A stretch of DNA of 64,000 nucleotides, from assembly GCF_003634315.1 (NCBI RefSeq), contig NZ_RBXL01000001.1:186001-250000 (forward strand), given 5' to 3'. Within the stretch, counting starts at the first letter, position 1. The number at the start of each line of letters is the position of its first letter. The position numbers and the translations under genes were made by a program. Below are positions 1,424-56,076 of this stretch, one piece after another. The notes under the pieces were generated by a model that made no database searches, had not been told where the DNA came from, and worked only from the letters and a program-made list of their open reading frames with translations. The DNA is from Thiocapsa rosea (GTDB lineage: Bacteria > Pseudomonadota > Gammaproteobacteria > Chromatiales > Chromatiaceae).

Positions 1424-2916
1424 GGCTCTCCCGGATCTCAGGGAACGCCAAGTTTAGTAAAATCAGTGTTCTACGCAGCCAATCTTGGTAAACTTCCATT
1501 CGAACGCTTTTAACTCAATGGAAAACCGATGATTGACCAGAGCCAACTCCTGCGCCTGCTCGGACTGCCGCAGATCGCCATCGACCGCGTCGAGATCACG
1601 GACGCCGCTGTGCTGGAAATTCATGTGCACAGCACCGAGGAGGGCACGCAGTGCCGGAGCTGCGGCCGACGCATCACTGAGCCGCATGGACTCGGTGAAG
1701 AACGGCGGTTGCGCCATCTGTCGATCTTCGAGCATCGCACCGAAATTCTCATTCGTCCCAAACGGTATCGCTGCCCCGATTGCCGGGATCATCCCACCAC
1801 CACCCAACGGGTGGACTGGTACGACCCGCGCAGCGGCTTCACCCGTGCGTTCGAACACAGCCTGATGCGCGCCCTGATCAACAGCACCCTGGAAGACGTC
1901 GCGCACAAGGAGGCCGTCACCCCGGAGCACCTCGACGGTATTCTCGATCGGTGCGTCCCGAGCCAGATCGACTGGACGACGCTCACGGCGCTGCCCGTGC
2001 TCGGGCTCGACGAGATCGCCTTGACCAAAGGCCACGGCAATTTCGTGGTGATCGTCAGCGCCAGGGTCGAGGACACCCTGAGCATCCTCGCCGTGCTCAA
2101 GGACCGTAAGCGCGCGACCATCGAGGCGTTTTTGCGCACGATCCCAAAATCCTTGCGGCGCACCGTTCGCGTCGTGTGCACCGACCTGTACAGCGGCTTC
2201 ATCGGTGCGGCCAAGGCCGTCTTCGGCACGCACGTCGCCATCTGCGCCGATCGCTTCCATGTCGCGCGTTTGTATCGCGACGCCGTGGAGACGTTGCGCA
2301 AGACAGAACTGCGCCGGCTCAAGCGCGACCTGTCGAAAACCGAGTACGGCGGGCTCAAGAACGTCCATTGGATCCTGCGCAAGCGCGAATCCGACTTGAG
2401 CGCCGAGGAACGGCGGATCCGCGCCCGGTTGTTCGCCTATTCCCCGCAACTCGCGCAAGCTCATGCCCTCAGCCAAGCCCTCACCGAGGTCTACGACATG
2501 CCCCTGTCCAAAGGTCAGGCCAAGCGCAAACTCAGTGGCTGGATGCGACGGGTCAAGAACGCCGAGATGACGTGTTTTCAATCCTTCCTGAAAACGTTGC
2601 GCCGTCATTGGGACGAGATCACCAATTATTTTACCGAACGACACACGAGCGGTTTCGTCGAAGGTCTCAACAACAAGATCAAAGTATTAAAACGGCGGTG
2701 CTATGGCTTGAGCAACCTGCGCCGGCTCTACCAGAGGGTGTACCTCGATCTGTGCGGTTATCGGGTTTTCGCGCGCTGATCAATGAAAAACAACCGCTTA
2801 AAAATGGCTTGGACGGGGTGCGTCCAGCGATATTTTCAACCAACGTGTTCGGTCAAAATGACTACAACGTCATGTTTTTAAATATTTTAGCGCTTTCCCT
2901 GAATTCCGGGAGAGCC
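1424..2916 (+). mobile_element. Complete ISL3-family insertion sequence, 1493 bp
   Basis: Terminal inverted repeats of about 26 bp (1424-1449 and 2891-2916, 22 of 26 positions matching) begin GGCTCTCCCGGA. An exact 8-bp target duplication, CGGAATCA, flanks the element at 1416-1423 and 2917-2924. Eight-base duplications are typical of the ISL3 family, and the single transposase gene inside is ISL3-type. Ends, duplication and open gene are all intact, so the element looks recent and possibly active. It sits between the DUF533 gene and the SAM-hydrolase-family gene and breaks no recognisable coding sequence. Confidence 0.95.
1529..2779 (+). CDS. tnp: ISL3-family DDE transposase
   Basis: 416 residues, full length for the family. 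The N-terminal zinc finger has two Cys pairs (C42/C45 and C82/C85), followed by a helix-turn-helix region. The catalytic DDE triad is visible as D161 in GLDEIAL, D219 in CTDLYSG and E378 in GFVEGLNNKIK. The C-terminal block with NNKIK and LKRRCYG is characteristic of ISL3 transposases. It cuts and rejoins the ends of the surrounding 1493-bp element. No frameshift or internal stop was seen. Long open frames on the opposite strand inside it are codon-bias shadows. Confidence 0.95.
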   Translation: MIDQSQLLRLLGLPQIAIDRVEITDAAVLEIHVHSTEEGTQCRSCGRRITEPHGLGEERRLRHLSIFEHRTEILIRPKRYRCPDCRDHPTTTQRVDWYDPRSGFTRAFEHSLMRALINSTLEDVAHKEAVTPEHLDGILDRCVPSQIDWTTLTALPVLGLDEIALTKGHGNFVVIVSARVEDTLSILAVLKDRKRATIEAFLRTIPKSLRRTVRVVCTDLYSGFIGAAKAVFGTHVAICADRFHVARLYRDAVETLRKTELRRLKRDLSKTEYGGLKNVHWILRKRESDLSAEERRIRARLFAYSPQLAQAHALSQALTEVYDMPLSKGQAKRKLSGWMRRVKNAEMTCFQSFLKTLRRHWDEITNYFTERHTSGFVEGLNNKIKVLKRRCYGLSNLRRLYQRVYLDLCGYRVFAR

Positions 2917-3126
2917 CGGAATCAGAGTGCGGCGAACGGTGCAGGGGTCTATTCAACGCTCGAAGCACGCAACATAACGACGGCATCAGGTGTCCGACGG
3001 ACACTCGAACTCCATGCCGACGCCATACTATACGTCATCGAAACCACGGGAAACGCGACAAATTTCGGGGCAATCGGGGCCGAGACGGCGGCCCCGAGGG
3101 CCGTATCTGGGTGTGCGTGAATGACT

Positions 3127-3879
3127 TCATCCGAGGGGCAGGAATGGACCGATGGGATCGCCGCAACACAGGCCCAAGTCGCGGTCCGCTCGACCGAGAT
3201 TGACCGCGATCTCGACGAGACCAAATGCGTTCTCGTACCAAAACGCCTCGCCGGATGCGACCTCGCAGAAGGTCCGGGCATGGCGGAGTCGATGTTCCCC
3301 GACGCGCAGGGCGTGCGTCCTCGGTCGACCCGTCGCCTGAAGCCCGGTCATCAGATTCCCGAAACGATCGACGTAAACGACCGCTGCGCGCTCCCTTGGC
3401 CAGTCCGACCCGATCATGTCGGCCGGATCCATCGGACACAGCTGAAGATCCGCGCCGACCGCCAAGCGTGCTGCAGCGGGAGCGAACCAGTCGCGTCCGT
3501 GGAAGCTCGCCGAGAGCACGGACGGACACCAGCCGATCCGATCCACGGTGGCGCCTTCGGCGCGATGCACGAGCGGAGCCAGTAGACCATTGTCGGGGCC
3601 GATGAACCAGGAGTCACGGATTTGGACCAGAAGCCCGTCACGCGCGCCCCCGACACCCGGATCCACAACACAGACATAGATCGCGCCGGGAGGCATGTCG
3701 CGCACGAGTGCCGGCAAGAGATAGGCGGCCAAATCGACGCGAAATGGCGGGAGATCGTGAACGAGATCCAGGACCGGCACCGCAGGCAGGAGATCACCGA
3801 GCCGAGCGCGCATCTGGCCGACATAGATGCCGTCACCGAAATCGGTGACCAGCACAAGACGCCGGATCGACGCCATCAC
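3127..3879 (-). CDS. SAM hydroxide adenosyltransferase (SAM hydrolase, DUF62 family)
   Basis: 250 residues. Characteristic motifs are TDFG at 12-15, VDPGVGG at 72-78 and PDNGLL at 95-100, which form the S-adenosylmethionine site of the DUF62/fluorinase superfamily (PF01887). Family members hydrolyse SAM to adenosine and methionine; halogenases are rare members and nothing here suggests one. A C-terminal beta-rich domain with DRFGN follows, as expected. The gene lies downstream of rplQ but beyond the alpha-operon terminator (3885-3911), so it needs its own promoter or readthrough. Confidence 0.88.
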   Translation of the reverse strand: MMASIRRLVLVTDFGDGIYVGQMRARLGDLLPAVPVLDLVHDLPPFRVDLAAYLLPALVRDMPPGAIYVCVVDPGVGGARDGLLVQIRDSWFIGPDNGLLAPLVHRAEGATVDRIGWCPSVLSASFHGRDWFAPAAARLAVGADLQLCPMDPADMIGSDWPRERAAVVYVDRFGNLMTGLQATGRPRTHALRVGEHRLRHARTFCEVASGEAFWYENAFGLVEIAVNLGRADRDLGLCCGDPIGPFLPLG

Positions 3880-3884
3880 TCAAC

Positions 3885-3911
3885 AAAAAAGCCGGGCATG
3901 AGCCCGGCTTT
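3885..3911 (-). terminator. Intrinsic terminator closing the ribosomal superoperon
   Basis: Read on the minus strand, the stem AAGCCGGGC / GCCCGGCTT has a 4-nt loop and runs into six Ts. It lies 27 bp after the rplQ stop codon, exactly where the alpha operon should end, and immediately before the start of the SAM-hydrolase-family gene. Confidence 0.92.
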
Positions 3912-3937
3912 CCGAAACGAGTGCATCAAAGCGCAAC

Positions 3938-4330
3938 TCAATCCTCGTCGTCTTCAACGGCCACTGCGCTCGCGGGACGGTCGACCAGCTCGACGTAAGC
4001 CATCGGCGCGGCATCACCGGCTCGATAGCCGCACTTGAGGATACGCAGGTAGCCGCCCGGACGTTCCTGATAGCGAGGCCCCAGCTCGACGAAGAGCTTG
4101 CCGACCGCTTCCTTGTCGCGCAGGCGCGCGAAGGCAAGGCGACGGGTGTGAACGGAATCGTTCTTCGCCAGGGTGATCAGAGGCTCGGCAACCCGACGCA
4201 GCTCCTTGGCCTTCGGCAGCGTGGTTTTGATCAGCTCATGGCGAAACAACGACGACGCCATGTTGCGAAACATGGCCTCGCGGTGCGAGCCGGTGCGATT
4301 GAGGTGCCTTCCGGCATTGCGATGACGCAT
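3938..4330 (-). CDS. rplQ: 50S ribosomal protein L17
   Basis: 130 residues (E. coli 127), starting [13 protein letters not shown], the invariant L17 N-terminus. It is part of the large subunit near the exit tunnel. It is the last gene of the alpha operon, 36 bp after rpoA, and is followed by a strong terminator. The C-terminus is a short acidic tail (VEDDED). Confidence 0.98.
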
Positions 4331-4366
4331 GGTCCTAATCCCGAATAGTTCTTGAATCGTATAGCG

Positions 4367-5377
4367 TTAACGAATGCCGAGCTCGGCGATATTGTCCGGC
4401 GGCCAGTTCTCGAGACGCATCCCGAGCGAGAGTCCGCGCGTGGCGAGCACGTCCTTGATCTCGGTCAACGACTTCTTGCCGAGATTCGGGGTCTTGAGAA
4501 GCTCGACCTCGGTCCGCTGGATCAAATCGCCGATCAGATAGATATTCTCGGCCTTCAAACAATTCGCAGAGCGAACGGTGAGCTCGAGATCGTCGACCGG
4601 ACGCAGCAGAATCGGATCGTATGGAGACTCGTCGCGCGCCTCGAGGACTTGCGTGTCCGACGGACCCGACCCTTCCAACGCCACGAAGCTGGACAACTGA
4701 TCCCGGAGAATCGTCGCCGCCCGCTGAATCGCTTCGCGCGGGTCGATCGTTCCGTTGGTCTCCAAGTCGATCACCAGCCGATCCAAATCGGTACGCTGCT
4801 CGACGCGCGCGGATTGCACCTCGATCGCGACCCGCCGAACCGGGCTGTAGGACGCATCGAGCGGAAGCTTGCCGATCGGGCGATCCTCACCCTCGTCGAG
4901 CTCGCGCTGCGTCGCCGGCTCGTAACCGCGCCCGCGCCGAATCGTCATCGACATGCTCAACTCGCCCTCGGTCATATTCGCAATGACCAGATGGGGGTTG
5001 GCGATCTCGGCGGTGTGATCGATCGCGATGTCCGCGGCGGTCACGACACCCGGGCCGGTCTTGCTCACCGTAAAGGTCGCCTCGTCCTTGCCTTTGAGCG
5101 AGATGGCGAGCTGCTTGAGATTCAACAGAATCTCGAGGACATCCTCCTGAACGCCCGGAATCGTGGTGTACTCATGCAAGACGCCCTGGATCTCGACCTC
5201 CGTCACCGCCCAGCCGTCCATCGAGGATAAGAGAATACGGCGCAACGCGTTGCCGAGGGTATGCCCGAAGCCGCGTTCGAGCGGCTCCAGGGAAACCCGC
5301 GCATGCGTCGAGCTGCCGTCGACCGCCTCGACACGTACGATGCGCGGTTTGAGAAATTCGCCAATAGCGTCAGTCAT
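4367..5377 (-). CDS. rpoA: RNA polymerase alpha subunit
   Basis: 336 residues, slightly longer than E. coli (329). The N-terminal dimerisation domain shows [21 protein letters not shown] (about 33-53). The C-terminal domain, after an Asp/Pro-rich linker, carries [12 protein letters not shown]-like and NLGKKSL motifs that bind UP-element DNA and activators. It lies between rpsD (22 bp) and rplQ (36 bp), the standard alpha-operon order. Confidence 0.98.
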
Positions 5378-5399
5378 TCAGTGCCCCTCACGAAGCTCC

Positions 5400-6020
5400 T
5401 TACTTGGAGTACAACTCGACGATCAGCGATTCGTTGATGTCGGCCGGCAGGTCCGAGCGATCCGGAATACGCTTGAAGACGCCCTTGAAACCTTTGGTAT
5501 CGACGTCGACCCAATCGGGGAAGCCATACTGCTCGGCGAGCGCCACCGCGTTTTGGACACGCACCTGCTTCTTCGCGTCCTCTCGGACCTCGACATGGTC
5601 ATCGGCGCCGACTTGGTAGGAGGCGATATTGACGACCCGGCCGTTGACCAAAATGGCCTTGTGGCTGACCAGCTGTCGAGCCTCGGAACGCGTGGCGCCG
5701 AAACCCATCCGGTAGACGACGTTGTCGAGGCGCCGCTCAAGGAGCTGCAACAGGTTTTCACCGGTCGCGCCCTTGGCTTGAGCCGCCTTCTTGTAGTAGT
5801 TACGGAACTGACGCTCCATCAGTCCGTAGATCCGGCGAACCTTCTGCTTCTCGCGAAGCTGCACACCGTAATCGGAAAGCCGACGCCGACGGTCCGTGGT
5901 TTGACCAGGCTGCTTCTCGAGGTTGCACTTGGTGTCCAGCGAACGCGCGCGACTCTTCAGGGCGAGATCGGTCCCCTCGCGCCGTGCGAGTTTGCAGGTT
6001 GGGCCTGTATAACGTGCCAT
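5400..6020 (-). CDS. rpsD: 30S ribosomal protein S4
   Basis: 206 residues, identical in length to E. coli S4. It begins [16 protein letters not shown] and has the S4 RNA-binding domain (about 96-160, with [12 protein letters not shown]). It is a primary 16S rRNA binder and in E. coli is the translational repressor of the alpha operon. The two cysteines seen (C9, C32) do not form a zinc knuckle. Confidence 0.98.
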
Positions 6021-6039
6021 GTCTCTACCTGTTCCTGTA

Positions 6040-6429
6040 TCAGACGCGCCGCTTTTTGGGCGGGCGGCAGCCGTTGTGCGGGATCGGCGTCACGTCGGTA
6101 ATGCTCGTGATCTTGAATCCGGCGTTGTTGAGTGCACGCACCGCGGATTCGCGACCCGGACCGGGCCCCTTCACGTTGACGTCGAGGTTGCGCAGACCGT
6201 AGTCCTTGACCGCTTGGCCGGCCTTATCAGCCGCGACCTGCGCAGCGAAGGGCGTGCTCTTGCGCGATCCCCGGAACCCGGAGCCGCCTGCGGTCGCCCA
6301 CGACAACACGTTGCCTTGGCGGTCCGTGATGGTGATGATGGTATTGTTGAACGAGGCGTGGACGTGAGCAATCCCATCCGCCACCTGTTTCTTGATCTTT
6401 TTCTTGACAGTACGAGTCGGTTTAGCCAT
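6040..6429 (-). CDS. rpsK: 30S ribosomal protein S11
   Basis: 129 residues, the same as E. coli. Typical features are the basic N-terminus with VKKKIKKQ, the [19 protein letters not shown] block and the C-terminal [12 protein letters not shown]. It lies in the platform of the small subunit next to mRNA. It is 38 bp after rpsM and 19 bp before rpsD. Confidence 0.98.
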
Positions 6430-6467
6430 TCGAGGTTATCCAGCCCTTTCGCTGCGCCCAAGCGCCC

Positions 6468-6824
6468 TTATCGTTTGATGGGACGACGCGGACCCTTACG
6501 GGTACGTGCGTTCGTGCGGGTCCGCTGACCACGCAACGGCAAGCCGCGACGGTGGCGAATACCGCGGTTGCAGCCGAGGTCCATCAAGCGCTTGATGTTC
6601 ATCGACACTTCACGCCGCAGGTCACCTTCCACGGAGAACTTGCCGACCTCGTTGCGGAGCTTGTCGACCTCTTCTTCCGTGAGGCTCTGAACCTTGGCAT
6701 CGCGCGGTACACCGGCGGCGTCGCAGATCACAGCGGCACGCACGCGGCCGATGCCATAAATCGAAGTCAGCGCGATGACCGCGTGCTTCTTGTCCGGGAT
6801 GTTGACGCCGGCGATACGGGCCAT
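6468..6824 (-). CDS. rpsM: 30S ribosomal protein S13
   Basis: 118 residues, the same as E. coli. It starts [19 protein letters not shown], has the helix-two-turns-helix region, and a C-terminal [18 protein letters not shown] tail that reaches the P-site tRNA. It is the first gene of the alpha operon. The 85-bp gap to rpmJ is where an S4-responsive leader would lie; no pseudoknot was established here. Confidence 0.98.
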
Positions 6825-6909
6825 AGCTTAGAAACCCCTGAAATCCAAATTGCCAAGCGGGTAAACCGCGTAGTATATCAAACCTTAGCCTTCAATCAAG
6901 CCCGAGATC

Positions 6910-26435: not shown

Positions 26436-26722
26436 GATCTTATCTCCTGCCTACAATGACGATGATCAGCAATCGGCCGACCGCCGAGGGTTCGTTCGAG
26501 AACGGAACCCGGCGCTCGAGGCCAAGGGCTAAAAACTGAACCGCGTCCGGTACGACATGCAAGATCGTCGTCGTGACTCGGCCTCGAGAGTCTCCACAAA
26601 CGACGCAGTCGACGCGGTTCAGAACAATAAAAAAAAGCTCCTGAACCGCGTCGCGCCAACGCGCGTTGATTGCGATTCGACCACGCAGGGGTTCAATCCT
26701 CACGAACCCCTCCGAACGCGGT
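26436..26722. other. Enlarged rpoB-rpoC spacer
   Basis: 287 bp separate the rpoB stop from the rpoC start, where enterobacteria have under 100 bp. Two 86-87-bp inverted-repeat elements (26536-26622 and 26641-26726) fill most of it. The part nearest rpoC (26436-26535) holds the rpoC ribosome-binding region and shows no gene. Confidence 0.85.
26536..26622. repeat. CTRAACCGCGYC palindromic element, copy A
   Basis: Perfect 12-bp terminal inverted repeats, CTGAACCGCGTC (26536-26547) and GACGCGGTTCAG (26611-26622), bound an 87-bp unit. A small inner hairpin (GACTC / GAGTC) is present. On the coding (minus) strand the unit is followed at once by TTTTT. The interior resembles copy D at 41514-41601 (ACTCGGCC and CGACGC near the right end are shared), which supports a repeat family. 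Confidence 0.85.

Positions 26723-26726
<4 letters not shown>
26641..26726. repeat. CTRAACCGCGYC palindromic element, copy B, overlapping the rpoB stop
   Basis: Arms CTGAACCGCGTC (26641-26652) and AACGCGGTTCAG (26715-26726) match over 11 bp; the unit is 86 bp. A nested perfect hairpin, AGGGGTTC / GAACCCCT, lies inside. The right arm contains the rpoB TGA stop codon. On the minus strand the left arm is followed after GAGC by eight Ts, a layout like an intrinsic terminator between rpoB and rpoC. Confidence 0.85.
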
Positions 26727-39597: not shown

Positions 39598-39687
39598 TTT
39601 AAACCGCGCCGGCTCCGACAGTTGTCGGAGCCGGCGCGGTCAATCCAATCCAACAAACGAGACATACCGCACCGGGCGCGGTTTAAA
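39598..39687. repeat. CTRAACCGCGYC-type palindromic element, copy C, overlapping the fadL stop
   Basis: Perfect 13-bp terminal repeats, TTTAAACCGCGCC (39598-39610) and GGCGCGGTTTAAA (39675-39687), bound a 90-bp unit. The left arm can instead pair with a nearby partner: ACCGCGCCGGCTCCGACA (39603-39620) and its exact complement (39623-39640) form an 18-bp stem with a GT loop. The right arm contains the TAA stop of the minus-strand FadL gene. The unit lies between the convergent ugd and FadL genes and could end transcription from both sides. Confidence 0.9.
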
Positions 39688-41176: not shown

Positions 41177-41706
41177 GTGCGAAAAGTCCTCCAGTCGTCA
41201 TGCCGCTTGAACGGCTAATTTTGTCGTTGAGAGGGTCGAGCCCCGTTCGACGGGCGCGCCAAAACCGGGATCGACGGATGGTCGAATGCGGAGTTGTGCC
41301 GTCATTGAAGACCGCGGAGACGACCTCGCCCACCGACCGGTCGGAGGACTTCGGATTCAGTGCGAGCGATTGCCCGATCCCGAATACGGCATCATTCGAC
41401 GGGATATTTTCGGAAGGCGCGGTGAGGCACTTGTGCGGAAAGGGCCGAGACACGCGGCGATCACGGAGATCAAGCGGAATACTCGGCTCGGGATTGCGAT
41501 TTGTCAAACTCCGCTAAACCGCGTCCGGAATCAACGATCGACGCGTGAGGACGATTCAAACTCGGCCGACATCGATCGACGCTGTCGCTGACGCGGTTTA
41601 GGAAATAAAAATCAAGATCTTAAAGGATTTCAGGCGTGGCTTTCACTGGCTCGGTTCATGCGGGGTCAAGTGCCCGCGCGAACTGGGCATGTGAACCGAA
41701 CGCCGT
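41177..41706. other. 530-bp gap between the FadL gene and pth
   Basis: No credible gene. It holds the FadL upstream region, a palindromic element (41514-41601) and, next to the pth stop, an inverted repeat TCGGTTCA (41651-41658) / TGAACCGA (41692-41699) without a T-run. A plus-strand frame crossing it lacks coding character. Confidence 0.6.
41514..41601. repeat. CTRAACCGCGYC palindromic element, copy D
   Basis: Perfect 12-bp arms, CTAAACCGCGTC (41514-41525) and GACGCGGTTTAG (41590-41601), bound an 88-bp unit. ACTCGGCC and CGACGC-GTC in the interior recur in copy A between rpoB and rpoC. Unlike the others it lies free in the intergenic space, not on the stop codon of a recognised gene. Confidence 0.85.
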
Positions 41707-53618: not shown

Positions 53619-54368
53619 ATGACCGACGCCGAGCTTCTGCGCTACAGCCGCCAGATCCTGCTGCCCGACTTCGGGATCGAGGGTCAGGAGCGGCTGCGGG
53701 CATCCAGCGTCCTGGTGGTCGGGCTCGGCGGACTGGGCTCGCCCGTCGCCATGTATCTCGCCGCGGCCGGTATCGGTCGGCTCGTACTGGCGGACTTCGA
53801 CGCGGTTGACCTGTCCAACCTCCAGCGACAAATCATCCATACCACCGCGCAGATCGGACGACCCAAAGCGGAATCCGCCCGCGTCGCGCTCGACGCGCTC
53901 AACCCGGGTGTGGATCTGGTGACCGTCAAGCGCAGTCTCGTGGAGGAAACGCTGCCGGACATCGTCGCCGAGGTGGATCTGGTGCTCGACTGCTGCGACA
54001 ACTTCGCGACCCGGTTTGCCGTGAACGCAGCCTGCGTGGCTGCCGGAGTCCCGCTCGTCAGCGGCGCGGCCATCCGTCTCGAGGGCCAGGTCACCGCGTT
54101 CTCCGGCCAACCCGGCGGACCCTGTTATGAGTGTCTCTACCCGCGCGACGCCAGCATCGACGAGACCTGCTCGACCAACGGCGTGCTCGCCCCGGTGGTG
54201 GGCATTATCGGCAGCATTCAAGCGACCGAGGCGATCAAGATCCTGACCGGACTGGGCGAACCCCTGTTCGGGCGCCTCCTGCTGCTGGATGCGGCGCTCA
54301 TGCAGTGGCGAAGCCTACGCCTGCCTTCCGATCCGAGCTGCCCGGTCTGTTCCATTACGCAGGTGTAA
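53619..54368 (+). CDS. moeB: MoeB/ThiF-family adenylyltransferase (E1-like)
   Basis: 249 residues. The ATP motif GLGGLG is at 35-40, the Asp for magnesium is in DCCDN (about 124-128), and the zinc ligands are C169/C172 and C241/C244. C184 in CSTNG matches the sulfur-acceptor Cys of the ThiF/MoeB group. It adenylates the C-terminal Gly of a ubiquitin-like sulfur carrier (MoaD or ThiS). No carrier gene is nearby, so molybdopterin or thiamine use is not decided. The TAA stop is the start of an ACCGCGCC motif. Confidence 0.88.
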   Translation: MTDAELLRYSRQILLPDFGIEGQERLRASSVLVVGLGGLGSPVAMYLAAAGIGRLVLADFDAVDLSNLQRQIIHTTAQIGRPKAESARVALDALNPGVDLVTVKRSLVEETLPDIVAEVDLVLDCCDNFATRFAVNAACVAAGVPLVSGAAIRLEGQVTAFSGQPGGPCYECLYPRDASIDETCSTNGVLAPVVGIIGSIQATEAIKILTGLGEPLFGRLLLLDAALMQWRSLRLPSDPSCPVCSITQV

Positions 54369-54376
54369 ACCGCGCC
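54366..54376. repeat. Solo TAAACCGCGCC arm on the moeB stop
   Basis: TAAACCGCGCC starts exactly at the moeB stop codon. A partial partner, GGCGCGG, occurs at 54424-54430, within the terminator hairpin, so this may be a degenerate copy of the palindromic element family. Confidence 0.55.
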
Positions 54377-54418
54377 GATACGCTGCAGTCCGATGCGGCA
54401 ATCGACACCCATCATCGC

Positions 54419-54440
54419 AGACCGGCGCGGCCGGTCTTTC
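54419..54440 (+). terminator. Terminator-like hairpin after moeB
   Basis: Perfect 8-bp stem AGACCGGC / GCCGGTCT with a GCG loop followed by TTTCC. It lies 50 bp beyond the moeB stop and 30 bp before the next ATG. The T-run is short, so termination may be partial. Confidence 0.6.
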
Positions 54441-54471
54441 CAACCGAGCAGTCGAATAGGTCACCCGTCTC

Positions 54472-55002
54472 ATGCGCTTCGAAATCAGCCCGGATCAGAT
54501 CAAAAAGGCCAACATCCCGCACGAATTATTCCTGACCAACCTGATCGCCAACCACATCCTGCTCGCGGTCGCGATGGGCGGCTTGGCCGGAAGTTTTCCC
54601 TGGGTGATGGCCATCATCCCGGCGATCTCCTTCAGCATCCTGGGCTTCACGCTTTGGCGTGCGAAGCGCGGTATCGGACGCGACTCCTGGTACGTCATGT
54701 GTCACTGGCAGGTCTGCGCGAAACGCAGCCGGATCTTCCTGGTGATGCTCAGCCTGCTCCTCACCGCGGTCGTGCTCGGCTGGGTCGGATACACCTACGG
54801 CGGGATGATGAAGGAAGCGGTCTGGGCACTGGTGATCGGCATCGGGATCCTCCCCGTGATGGCCACGGTGCTCGTGCTGATCATCGTCGAGTCCGATGCC
54901 CTCTATCACGCCAATCAGGCCAAGCTCCCGGATTGGGTCGTCGCGCGCTTCCCGAACGCGGAGGCGCGGGTCATCGAGGATGATCCCCAGGCATCCCATT
55001 AA
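54472..55002 (+). CDS. Multi-pass membrane protein of unknown function
   Basis: 176 residues, not recognised. Four hydrophobic segments are clear (about 25-43, 44-62, 88-108 and 114-140), with a charged N-terminus and C-terminus and a central basic loop (RAKRGIGRDSWY...CAKRSR). No catalytic motif was seen. It follows moeB on the same strand and is convergent with ubiA. Its TAA stop forms the start of TAAACCGCGTC. Confidence 0.75.
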   Translation: MRFEISPDQIKKANIPHELFLTNLIANHILLAVAMGGLAGSFPWVMAIIPAISFSILGFTLWRAKRGIGRDSWYVMCHWQVCAKRSRIFLVMLSLLLTAVVLGWVGYTYGGMMKEAVWALVIGIGILPVMATVLVLIIVESDALYHANQAKLPDWVVARFPNAEARVIEDDPQASH

Positions 55003-55010
55003 ACCGCGTC
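54999..55010. repeat. Solo TTAAACCGCGTC arm on a stop codon
   Basis: The 12-bp arm sequence of the palindromic family overlaps the TAA stop (55000-55002) of the preceding gene. No GACGCGG partner lies within 100 bp. A CTCACT-TTCG-AGTGAG tetraloop hairpin follows at about 55024-55039. Confidence 0.65.
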
Positions 55011-55075
55011 CAGAGCGAGATGCTCACTTTCGAGTGAGTTCGGCGTTTGGTCACGGCCGACCGATCCGGCCGGGA

Positions 55076-56063: not shown

Positions 56064-56076
56064 ACGCGCGGTTTAG
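56064..56076. repeat. Solo ACGCGCGGTTTAG arm
   Basis: This reads as the right-hand arm of the palindromic family with a 2-bp CG insertion (GACGCG-CGGTTTAG). No partner was seen nearby. It lies upstream of ubiA. Confidence 0.4.

Follow-up and report, generated by a model that had tools for sequence, protein, structure and literature searches.

A candidate mobile hairpin element of Thiocapsa whose ends coincide with stop codons

The window, a stretch of 64,000 nucleotides from the Thiocapsa rosea genome, carries genes assigned by Pfam to rpoB, FadL/TodX, the ThiF family (moeB-like), pth and UbiA, and a Pfam search with the proteins of the 54472 and 51523 genes gave no match. A 9-base arm, TRAACCGCG, occurs 13 times within it. 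An Rfam search of the window at the gathering score returned tRNAs only, with no family matched at the elements listed below. The preliminary description of this DNA had noted that the arm opens on the stop codon of the adjoining gene in four cases, namely rpoB and the FadL gene (minus strand) and moeB and the 54472 gene (plus strand), and the letters agree at all four. The four are not equals, however, as those at rpoB and FadL belong to complete elements of 84 and 86 bp, whereas the arm at 55000 is part of a half element and the one at moeB is doubtful.

26642..26725, minus strand: complete 84-bp hairpin element; its right arm opens with the rpoB stop TGA (26723-26725), partner arm 11/11
26537..26621, unstranded: second complete element in the rpoB-rpoC gap, 85 bp, 20 bp from the element at 26642..26725
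39600..39685, minus strand: complete 86-bp element; its right arm opens with the stop TAA (39683-39685) of the FadL-family gene, partner arm 11/11
41515..41600, unstranded: complete 86-bp element off stops, in the gap between the FadL gene and pth; orthologous copies in G003, G008 and G009
55000..55051, plus strand: half element of left arm and interior; its TAA (55000-55002) ends the 54472 membrane-protein gene; right limit set by eye
54366..54376, plus strand: arm-like 11-mer at the moeB stop (TAA 54366-54368), without a partner arm and with G at -1; doubtful as an element
56067..56075, minus strand: lone arm-like sequence upstream of the UbiA gene, the same in G003 and G004; none of the normal element length pairs with it, the best partner being 9/11 at 53 bp
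6862..6870, plus strand: lone arm-like sequence with G at -1, the same in G001 and G004; best partner 9/11 at 79 bp

Here G000 denotes the window's own genome, and G001, G003, G004 and G006-G010 are other members of the genus Thiocapsa. The arm at 55000 has no partner (best 8/11), and beyond the half element the sequence can be aligned to that of element-free relatives. The moeB arm also lacks a partner (best 7/11) and has G at -1, where 93-98% of arms have a pyrimidine; the G001 sequence that can be aligned by eye at the end of moeB is without the arm, and the moeB arm may be a chance match or a relic. Further near matches had been proposed after the stops of pth (9/11) and of the 51523 gene (5/11), but with best partners of 6/11 and 7/11 these are probably not arms. 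The copies of the 41515..41600 element in G008 and G009 show arm changes.

Two complete elements lie between rpoB and rpoC (26436-26722), with orthologous copies in G001, G003, G004 and G009, the arm at the rpoB stop being one base off in G003. No exact arm was found in this gap in G006, G007 or G010; in G007 the rpoB stop has a match with a single mismatch, and the site is not a clean empty one because it holds 186 bp of other sequence. As rpoB and rpoC usually form one operon, the presence of two copies between them argues against a strong terminator.

Anatomy of the element

Arms were counted in a sample of 1.2 Mb of the 6.11-Mb G000 genome, in which the window occupies 186001-250000 (with 5,000 of its bases masked) and 1,042 genes were called by a codon-usage script. 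The 11-base arm TRAACCGCGYC has 810 + 830 (1,640) exact occurrences in the 6.11-Mb genome, compared with 9 + 14 (23) for the reversed pattern. Exact arms facing each other form 174 complete pairs in the 1.2 Mb, of which 166 are 83-87 bp long, mostly 84-86 bp, and the interiors vary widely among 60 elements compared. If the sample is typical, the genome as a whole would carry about 900 elements. Both ends read inwards as a pyrimidine followed by TRAACCGCGYC, so that either end, on reaching a gene, reads as TAA or TGA in the direction of that gene. When only the inner core was searched, and TRA thus not presupposed, TAA or TGA stood at 311 of 334 ends, with a pyrimidine just outside at 97%. TAA arms dominate (370/449). 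Many elements consist, by eye, of two units whose heads point outwards, joined by an AT-rich linker of 20-29 bp, and one site holds an element pair in G000 and a single unit in G001.

Two variations on this plan were seen at individual sites. The arm is doubled 10 bp apart at two stops, G000:C1:109425-109445 and 312116-312136, as TGAACCGCGC followed by TRAACCGCGTCC; the doubling at 109425-109445 is common to G001, and at the 312116-312136 site G001 has AAGCGCG in both copies. The tandem elements of G000:C1:109382-109670 and of the orthologous gap in G001 agree fully in their arms, and their linkers can be aligned, but about one third of the interior positions differ, more than in the flanks, which suggests that the interior of the element may evolve unusually fast.

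The two arms of an element can depart from the consensus in step. Among 253 elements with relaxed arms, mirrored departures were found at 25 positions, a count that relatedness among elements can inflate, against a mean of 2.2 and a maximum of 8 with right arms shuffled; 150 departures affected one side only and 3 affected both sides differently. The 25 mirrored changes sit in 22 elements, one pair of which shares interior sequence. Eight of the 22 are on stops and 14 off stops, and mirroring does not, therefore, need a stop. The excess was weaker in the smaller samples of G001 (6 against 0.7, shuffled maximum 6) and G004 (2 against 0.5, maximum 4). At arm position 2 the paired arms read A/A in 198 elements, G/G in 40 and a mixture in 8, and one orthologous site has TGA..TCA in G000 and TAA..TTA in G001. 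This pattern points to the hairpin as the unit that is kept or copied, as separate recognition of the two ends would not predict mirroring.

Arms at stop codons

In the 1.2 Mb, 94 of 449 arms begin with the three letters of the adjoining gene's in-frame stop, so that arms end 94 of the 1,042 called genes. On the same strand, the distance from stop to arm is exactly 0 in these 94 and 3-20 in 36, a comparison that has to be made between 0 and 3 or beyond because the arm sequence itself forbids stops at distances 1, 2 and -1 to -9. For arms of complete elements the distance is 0 in 67/348, and 91 of 199 insertion units have a stop arm. Of the open reading frames that reach an arm, 94 end on it and 12 read on.

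To be informative, these numbers need to be set against chance occurrences of the same letters, a count that the preliminary description had proposed, naming as the result that would speak against its idea an overlap of arms with stops no more frequent than for any intergenic repeat containing TAA or TGA. Among outer arms, 93/332 (28%) lie on stops, whereas outside elements stops account for 776 of 7797 intergenic-or-stop TRA sites and 448 of 4141 YTRA sites (10-11%). The corresponding p values, 2e-20 for TRA and 4e-18 for YTRA, are optimistic, as arms of one family are not independent. The same comparison gave 14/79 against 153/1639 in G001 and 11/43 against 166/1603 in G004, and one of 155 unrelated control 7-mers (TRAGCGA, 16/57) matches the stop fraction of the arms, the median being 9%. 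Elements also differ in frequency between kinds of gap: 52 lie in convergent, 98 in tandem and 20 in divergent gaps, and 4 inside called genes, which for gaps of at least 20 bp (128 convergent, 491 tandem, 140 divergent) gives 0.41, 0.20 and 0.14 elements per gap. This ranking would be expected if elements were attracted to, or tolerated at, the 3' ends of genes.

How large the excess is depends on the target assumed. Under a Y-T-R-R target, the occupied fraction is 0.150 at stops and falls to 0.081, 0.046 and 0.026 at sites 3-20, 21-60 and 61-110 bp downstream, and 94/626 stops are occupied compared with 16/198 sites 3-20 bp downstream (odds ratio 2.0, p 0.012). For the same contrast the odds ratio is 1.9 (p 0.04) with Y-TA-R and 1.3 (p 0.42) with Y-T-(AR or GA), and the excess at stops is about 6-fold if only about one third of the insertions downstream fell on such sites, a share suggested by 4 of 11 empty sites. 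The naive rate at stops, 67-fold that at any position 3-20 bp downstream, is overstated, and the fair figure is 2.6-2.8 relative to intergenic YTRA or TRA. Since about one in ten intergenic-or-stop YTRA sites is a stop, a preference for such sites would by itself place about 11% of the arms on stops and not 28%, and a pull towards gene ends, or tolerance there, must be added. Site preference and closeness to gene ends together account for much of the placement, and stops may still be favoured by a factor of 1.3 to 6.

Empty and filled orthologous sites

The comparison of orthologues covered G001, G004 and, in shorter stretches, six further genus members. For 16 arm-ended genes an orthologue without an arm at its stop was available, and 13 of them stop at the same codon as this orthologue, or 10 of 13 gene families once two mutually orthologous genes and two doubtful ones (moeB and gene 148 of G000, whose G001 orthologue has an arm 3 nt further on) are taken into account; the other 3 of the 16 are shortened, by 2, 3 and 13 residues. 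Orthologues with 1-3 arm mismatches are left out of this count as possible relics, and some same-codon cases were dropped with them, such as the G001 arm gene that faces gene 245 of G000. Where G000 and G001 differ in this way, the stop opposite a TAA arm is TGA in 5 of 8 empty partners (rows with exact arms, chosen by hand, among which moeB counts as a TAG), yet stops are otherwise stable between the two genomes, with TGA opposite TAA or TAG in 7 of 105 pairs without an element, which indicates that the TRA belongs to the element. As such, the comparison of C-termini, the change from TGA to TAA and the 94 reading frames that end on an arm against 12 that read on all uphold the earlier suggestion that the arm supplies its own stop and can thereby enter gene ends without damage.

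Two genes of the window show the two outcomes. The FadL gene ends in HRF-TAA followed by the element in G000 and G001 and in HRF-TGA without an arm in G003, G004, G006, G009 and G010, with an arm one base off in G008. The product of the 54472 gene is three residues shorter than in G006 and G010 and, by eye, than in G001, G003, G004, G008 and G009; that of G007 is shorter. At five empty sites readable from both sides, the element's place is taken by a net 2 bp in four cases and by 1 bp in the remaining one. Off stops, T-R follows a pyrimidine in 4 of 11 empty sites (a hand count that leaves out two rows of the gene 148 site), and others read TT, CA, CC or GA. Insertion was not always clean: G000 holds an element pair between its genes 63 and 64, where the G001 gap holds more than 100 bp of other sequence. 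Among the sites compared, 148446 is unclear, and neither G007 at rpoB nor two G008 sites with relic elements are clean empties.

Origin of the element and its relation to known systems

Hundreds of exact arms are present in 8 of 11 genus members, including G000, and the other three are near background; elsewhere in the family, among 194 genomes searched, the arm is clearly raised in G028, G063, G159, G173, G186, G168, G192 and G201. Such a patchy distribution fits a mobile element. Together with the placement and the empty sites, it leads us to favour, at a probability of roughly 0.55, a non-autonomous mobile, hairpin-forming intergenic element that enters existing stops with its own TAA or TGA. 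Insertion would favour Y-T-R-R-like sites and, judging from the same-codon orthologues without an element, would have reached stop codons already in place, where TGA, TAG or TAA was replaced by the element's own TAA or TGA. As the stop is restored, such insertions would be harmless, and stop codons would so collect the element. The hairpin would be the unit recognised or copied in mobility, as in REPINs, which would account for arms that stay mirrored, and any effect on mRNA 3' ends would be a by-product. No autonomous copy or clearly linked transposase was found in the loci and the 2.0 Mb examined, and mobility is thus deduced from copy number, patchy distribution and empty sites.

In those 2.0 Mb, drawn from three genomes, five facing arm pairs 250-6000 bp apart were found, two of which enclose a transposase gene, presumably IS1595-like in G000 and IS1380-like in G004 from the look of the proteins. 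Neither represents a parent insertion sequence, as both genes lie in the linker of an element pair and are therefore passengers. As an observation in its own right, two different insertion sequences each sit in the AT-rich linker of an element pair, at about 5340-6760 of locus L062 (G000:C1:1065340-1066760) and about 2700-4800 of locus L139 (G004), the former with the same 8 bp, AAATATTA, on each side by eye, and this linker may be a favoured target of insertion sequences.

Instead of a by-product of mobility, a hairpin stem that starts at the stop could itself be useful, by protecting mRNA 3' ends or slowing ribosome release, with on-stop insertions being retained more often for that reason. 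This is a tentative reading that we consider rather unlikely. It would fit the stop excess left after target correction, the retention of the two rpoB-rpoC elements in five genomes, and the structure of the 67 complete stop-arm elements, 58 of which are predicted to fold with the stop inside the paired stem and 41 of which carry a recognisable head at the stop end, against 6 at the far end. It would also fit the conservation of the arms, which diverge by 5-6% between orthologous G000 and G001 sites compared with 24-31% at positions 13-40, figures that use both directions of one genome pair and are not independent (between G000 and four other genomes, 2% against 11-16%). However, the sites were chosen by their exact arms in the source genome, and neutral arms would then be expected to diverge about half as much as the interior, which leaves a contrast of only about two-fold; three genus members, moreover, are near background. 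In addition, the position of 14 of the 22 mirrored elements off stops speaks against the functional link between stop and RNA fold that the preliminary description had put forward, despite the paired stops of the predicted folds.

A second possibility, which we regard as doubtful, is a true REPIN family moved by a genome-encoded RAYT. In the available text of PMC3116915, the REPINs of Pseudomonas fluorescens SBW25 are described as REP doublets with short invariant inverted ends, a less conserved spacer, a hairpin, two-sided compensatory changes, extragenic location and occurrence in clusters. The Thiocapsa element resembles them in its two inverted conserved ends with a spacer, its hairpin folds and its mirrored changes, and its clusters and extragenic location fit as well. 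Proteins matching PF01797 are present, with 9 matches in G000, and a complete exact-armed element lies about 1.3 kb from a match in 3 of 20 loci (L164, L166 and L173, with 4 of the 9 G000 matches covered). Against this, PF01797 proteins occur in all 8 genomes searched, including the element-free ones, with 14 matches in G006 and 4 each in G007 and G010, and no exact-armed element touches the match in the 20 loci. At one of these, L159 in element-poor G010, a relaxed arm pair overlaps the match, probably by chance. Lacking facing exact arms at their ends in the loci examined, both PF01797 and PF13358 proteins were rejected as linked movers, and no clear RAYT link as in REPINs was found. The arm differs too, being an 11-mer without GTAG or CGTC tag and, by eye, with no palindrome beyond CGCG, and its outermost bases form a stop in either direction. 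By analogy, the element may work like a REPIN, and we claim no membership for a repeat without the tagged palindromic REP.

Similarly doubtful is a more far-reaching version of stop-codon entry, in which a process that senses the stop codon or translation termination would direct the element into stops beyond local sequence preference, with stop and stem then acting together at mRNA 3' ends. If this were true, a mobile termination module would form the end of about 9% of the genes in the 1.2-Mb sample.

Less probable still is a MITE of the classical kind, mobilised by a DDE transposase that strictly requires TA as its target (Y-TA-R) and duplicates it, so that TAA or TAG stops would be regenerated as TAA. 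The pyrimidine outer flanks, the dominance of TAA and the 1.9-fold odds of Y-TA-R sites at stops are in line with it. RUP, a bacterial MITE, inserts at sites with TA and shares its ends with IS630-Spn1 in the available text of PMC2229807, and our element resembles RUP and Correia/NEMIS in size range, terminal inverted repeats and intergenic location. In contrast to RUP, no parent insertion sequence was found and the Thiocapsa empty sites are not restricted to TA, and a strict TA target was rejected because TGA stands at 5 of 8 empty stops, compared with the roughly 7% predicted from conversion, and because empty sites elsewhere do not read TA. Moreover, TGA..TCA ends are inverted, not direct, and cannot be a TA duplication, and mirrored arms are not expected if each end is bound alone. 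No facing arm pair was found at 24 of 29 PF13358 loci, those examined, two of which had lone arms, and a PF13358 search of arm-rich G003 (a 91% complete assembly) gave no match. Random in-frame truncation, in which insertion anywhere near gene ends leaves survivors with TRA in frame, is very improbable. It would fit the three shortened genes, including that at 54472, but as a main cause it is contradicted by the 13 of 16 same-codon orthologues and by 94 arms at distance 0 against 36 in the whole of 3-20, where insertion would be equally harmless to the protein.

The supply of stop codons by REP ends is already known, at least from the accessible part of PMC3733652, which describes GTAG-tagged REPs of 20-40 bp near gene 3' ends; the element described here differs in its length of 84-86 bp, its sequence, the lack of a GTAG tag and the supply of TAA or TGA from both ends. 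REPs of Escherichia coli within 15 nt of stop codons lower translation according to work cited in the available part of PMC12306157, and our element is similar in placing a hairpin at or just after the stop, with the difference that in the predicted folds the stop itself forms the base of the stem. A search of the open-licence literature on Chromatiaceae or Thiocapsa repeats, MITEs of purple sulfur bacteria and stop-codon insertion found no description of the element. As far as that literature goes, the family, its ends giving TAA or TGA in both directions and the before-and-after evidence of landing on existing stops are new.

Returning to the mobile element that we favour, a stop codon at both ends would allow harmless entry into the 3' ends of genes and could explain the roughly 1,600 arms in one genome. 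Because the arm changes are mirrored, recognition or copying is likely to act on the hairpin as a whole and not on each end separately. Finally, the empty and filled orthologous sites of Thiocapsa form natural pairs, in which the influence of a hairpin starting at the stop codon on mRNA ends or translation could be looked for.
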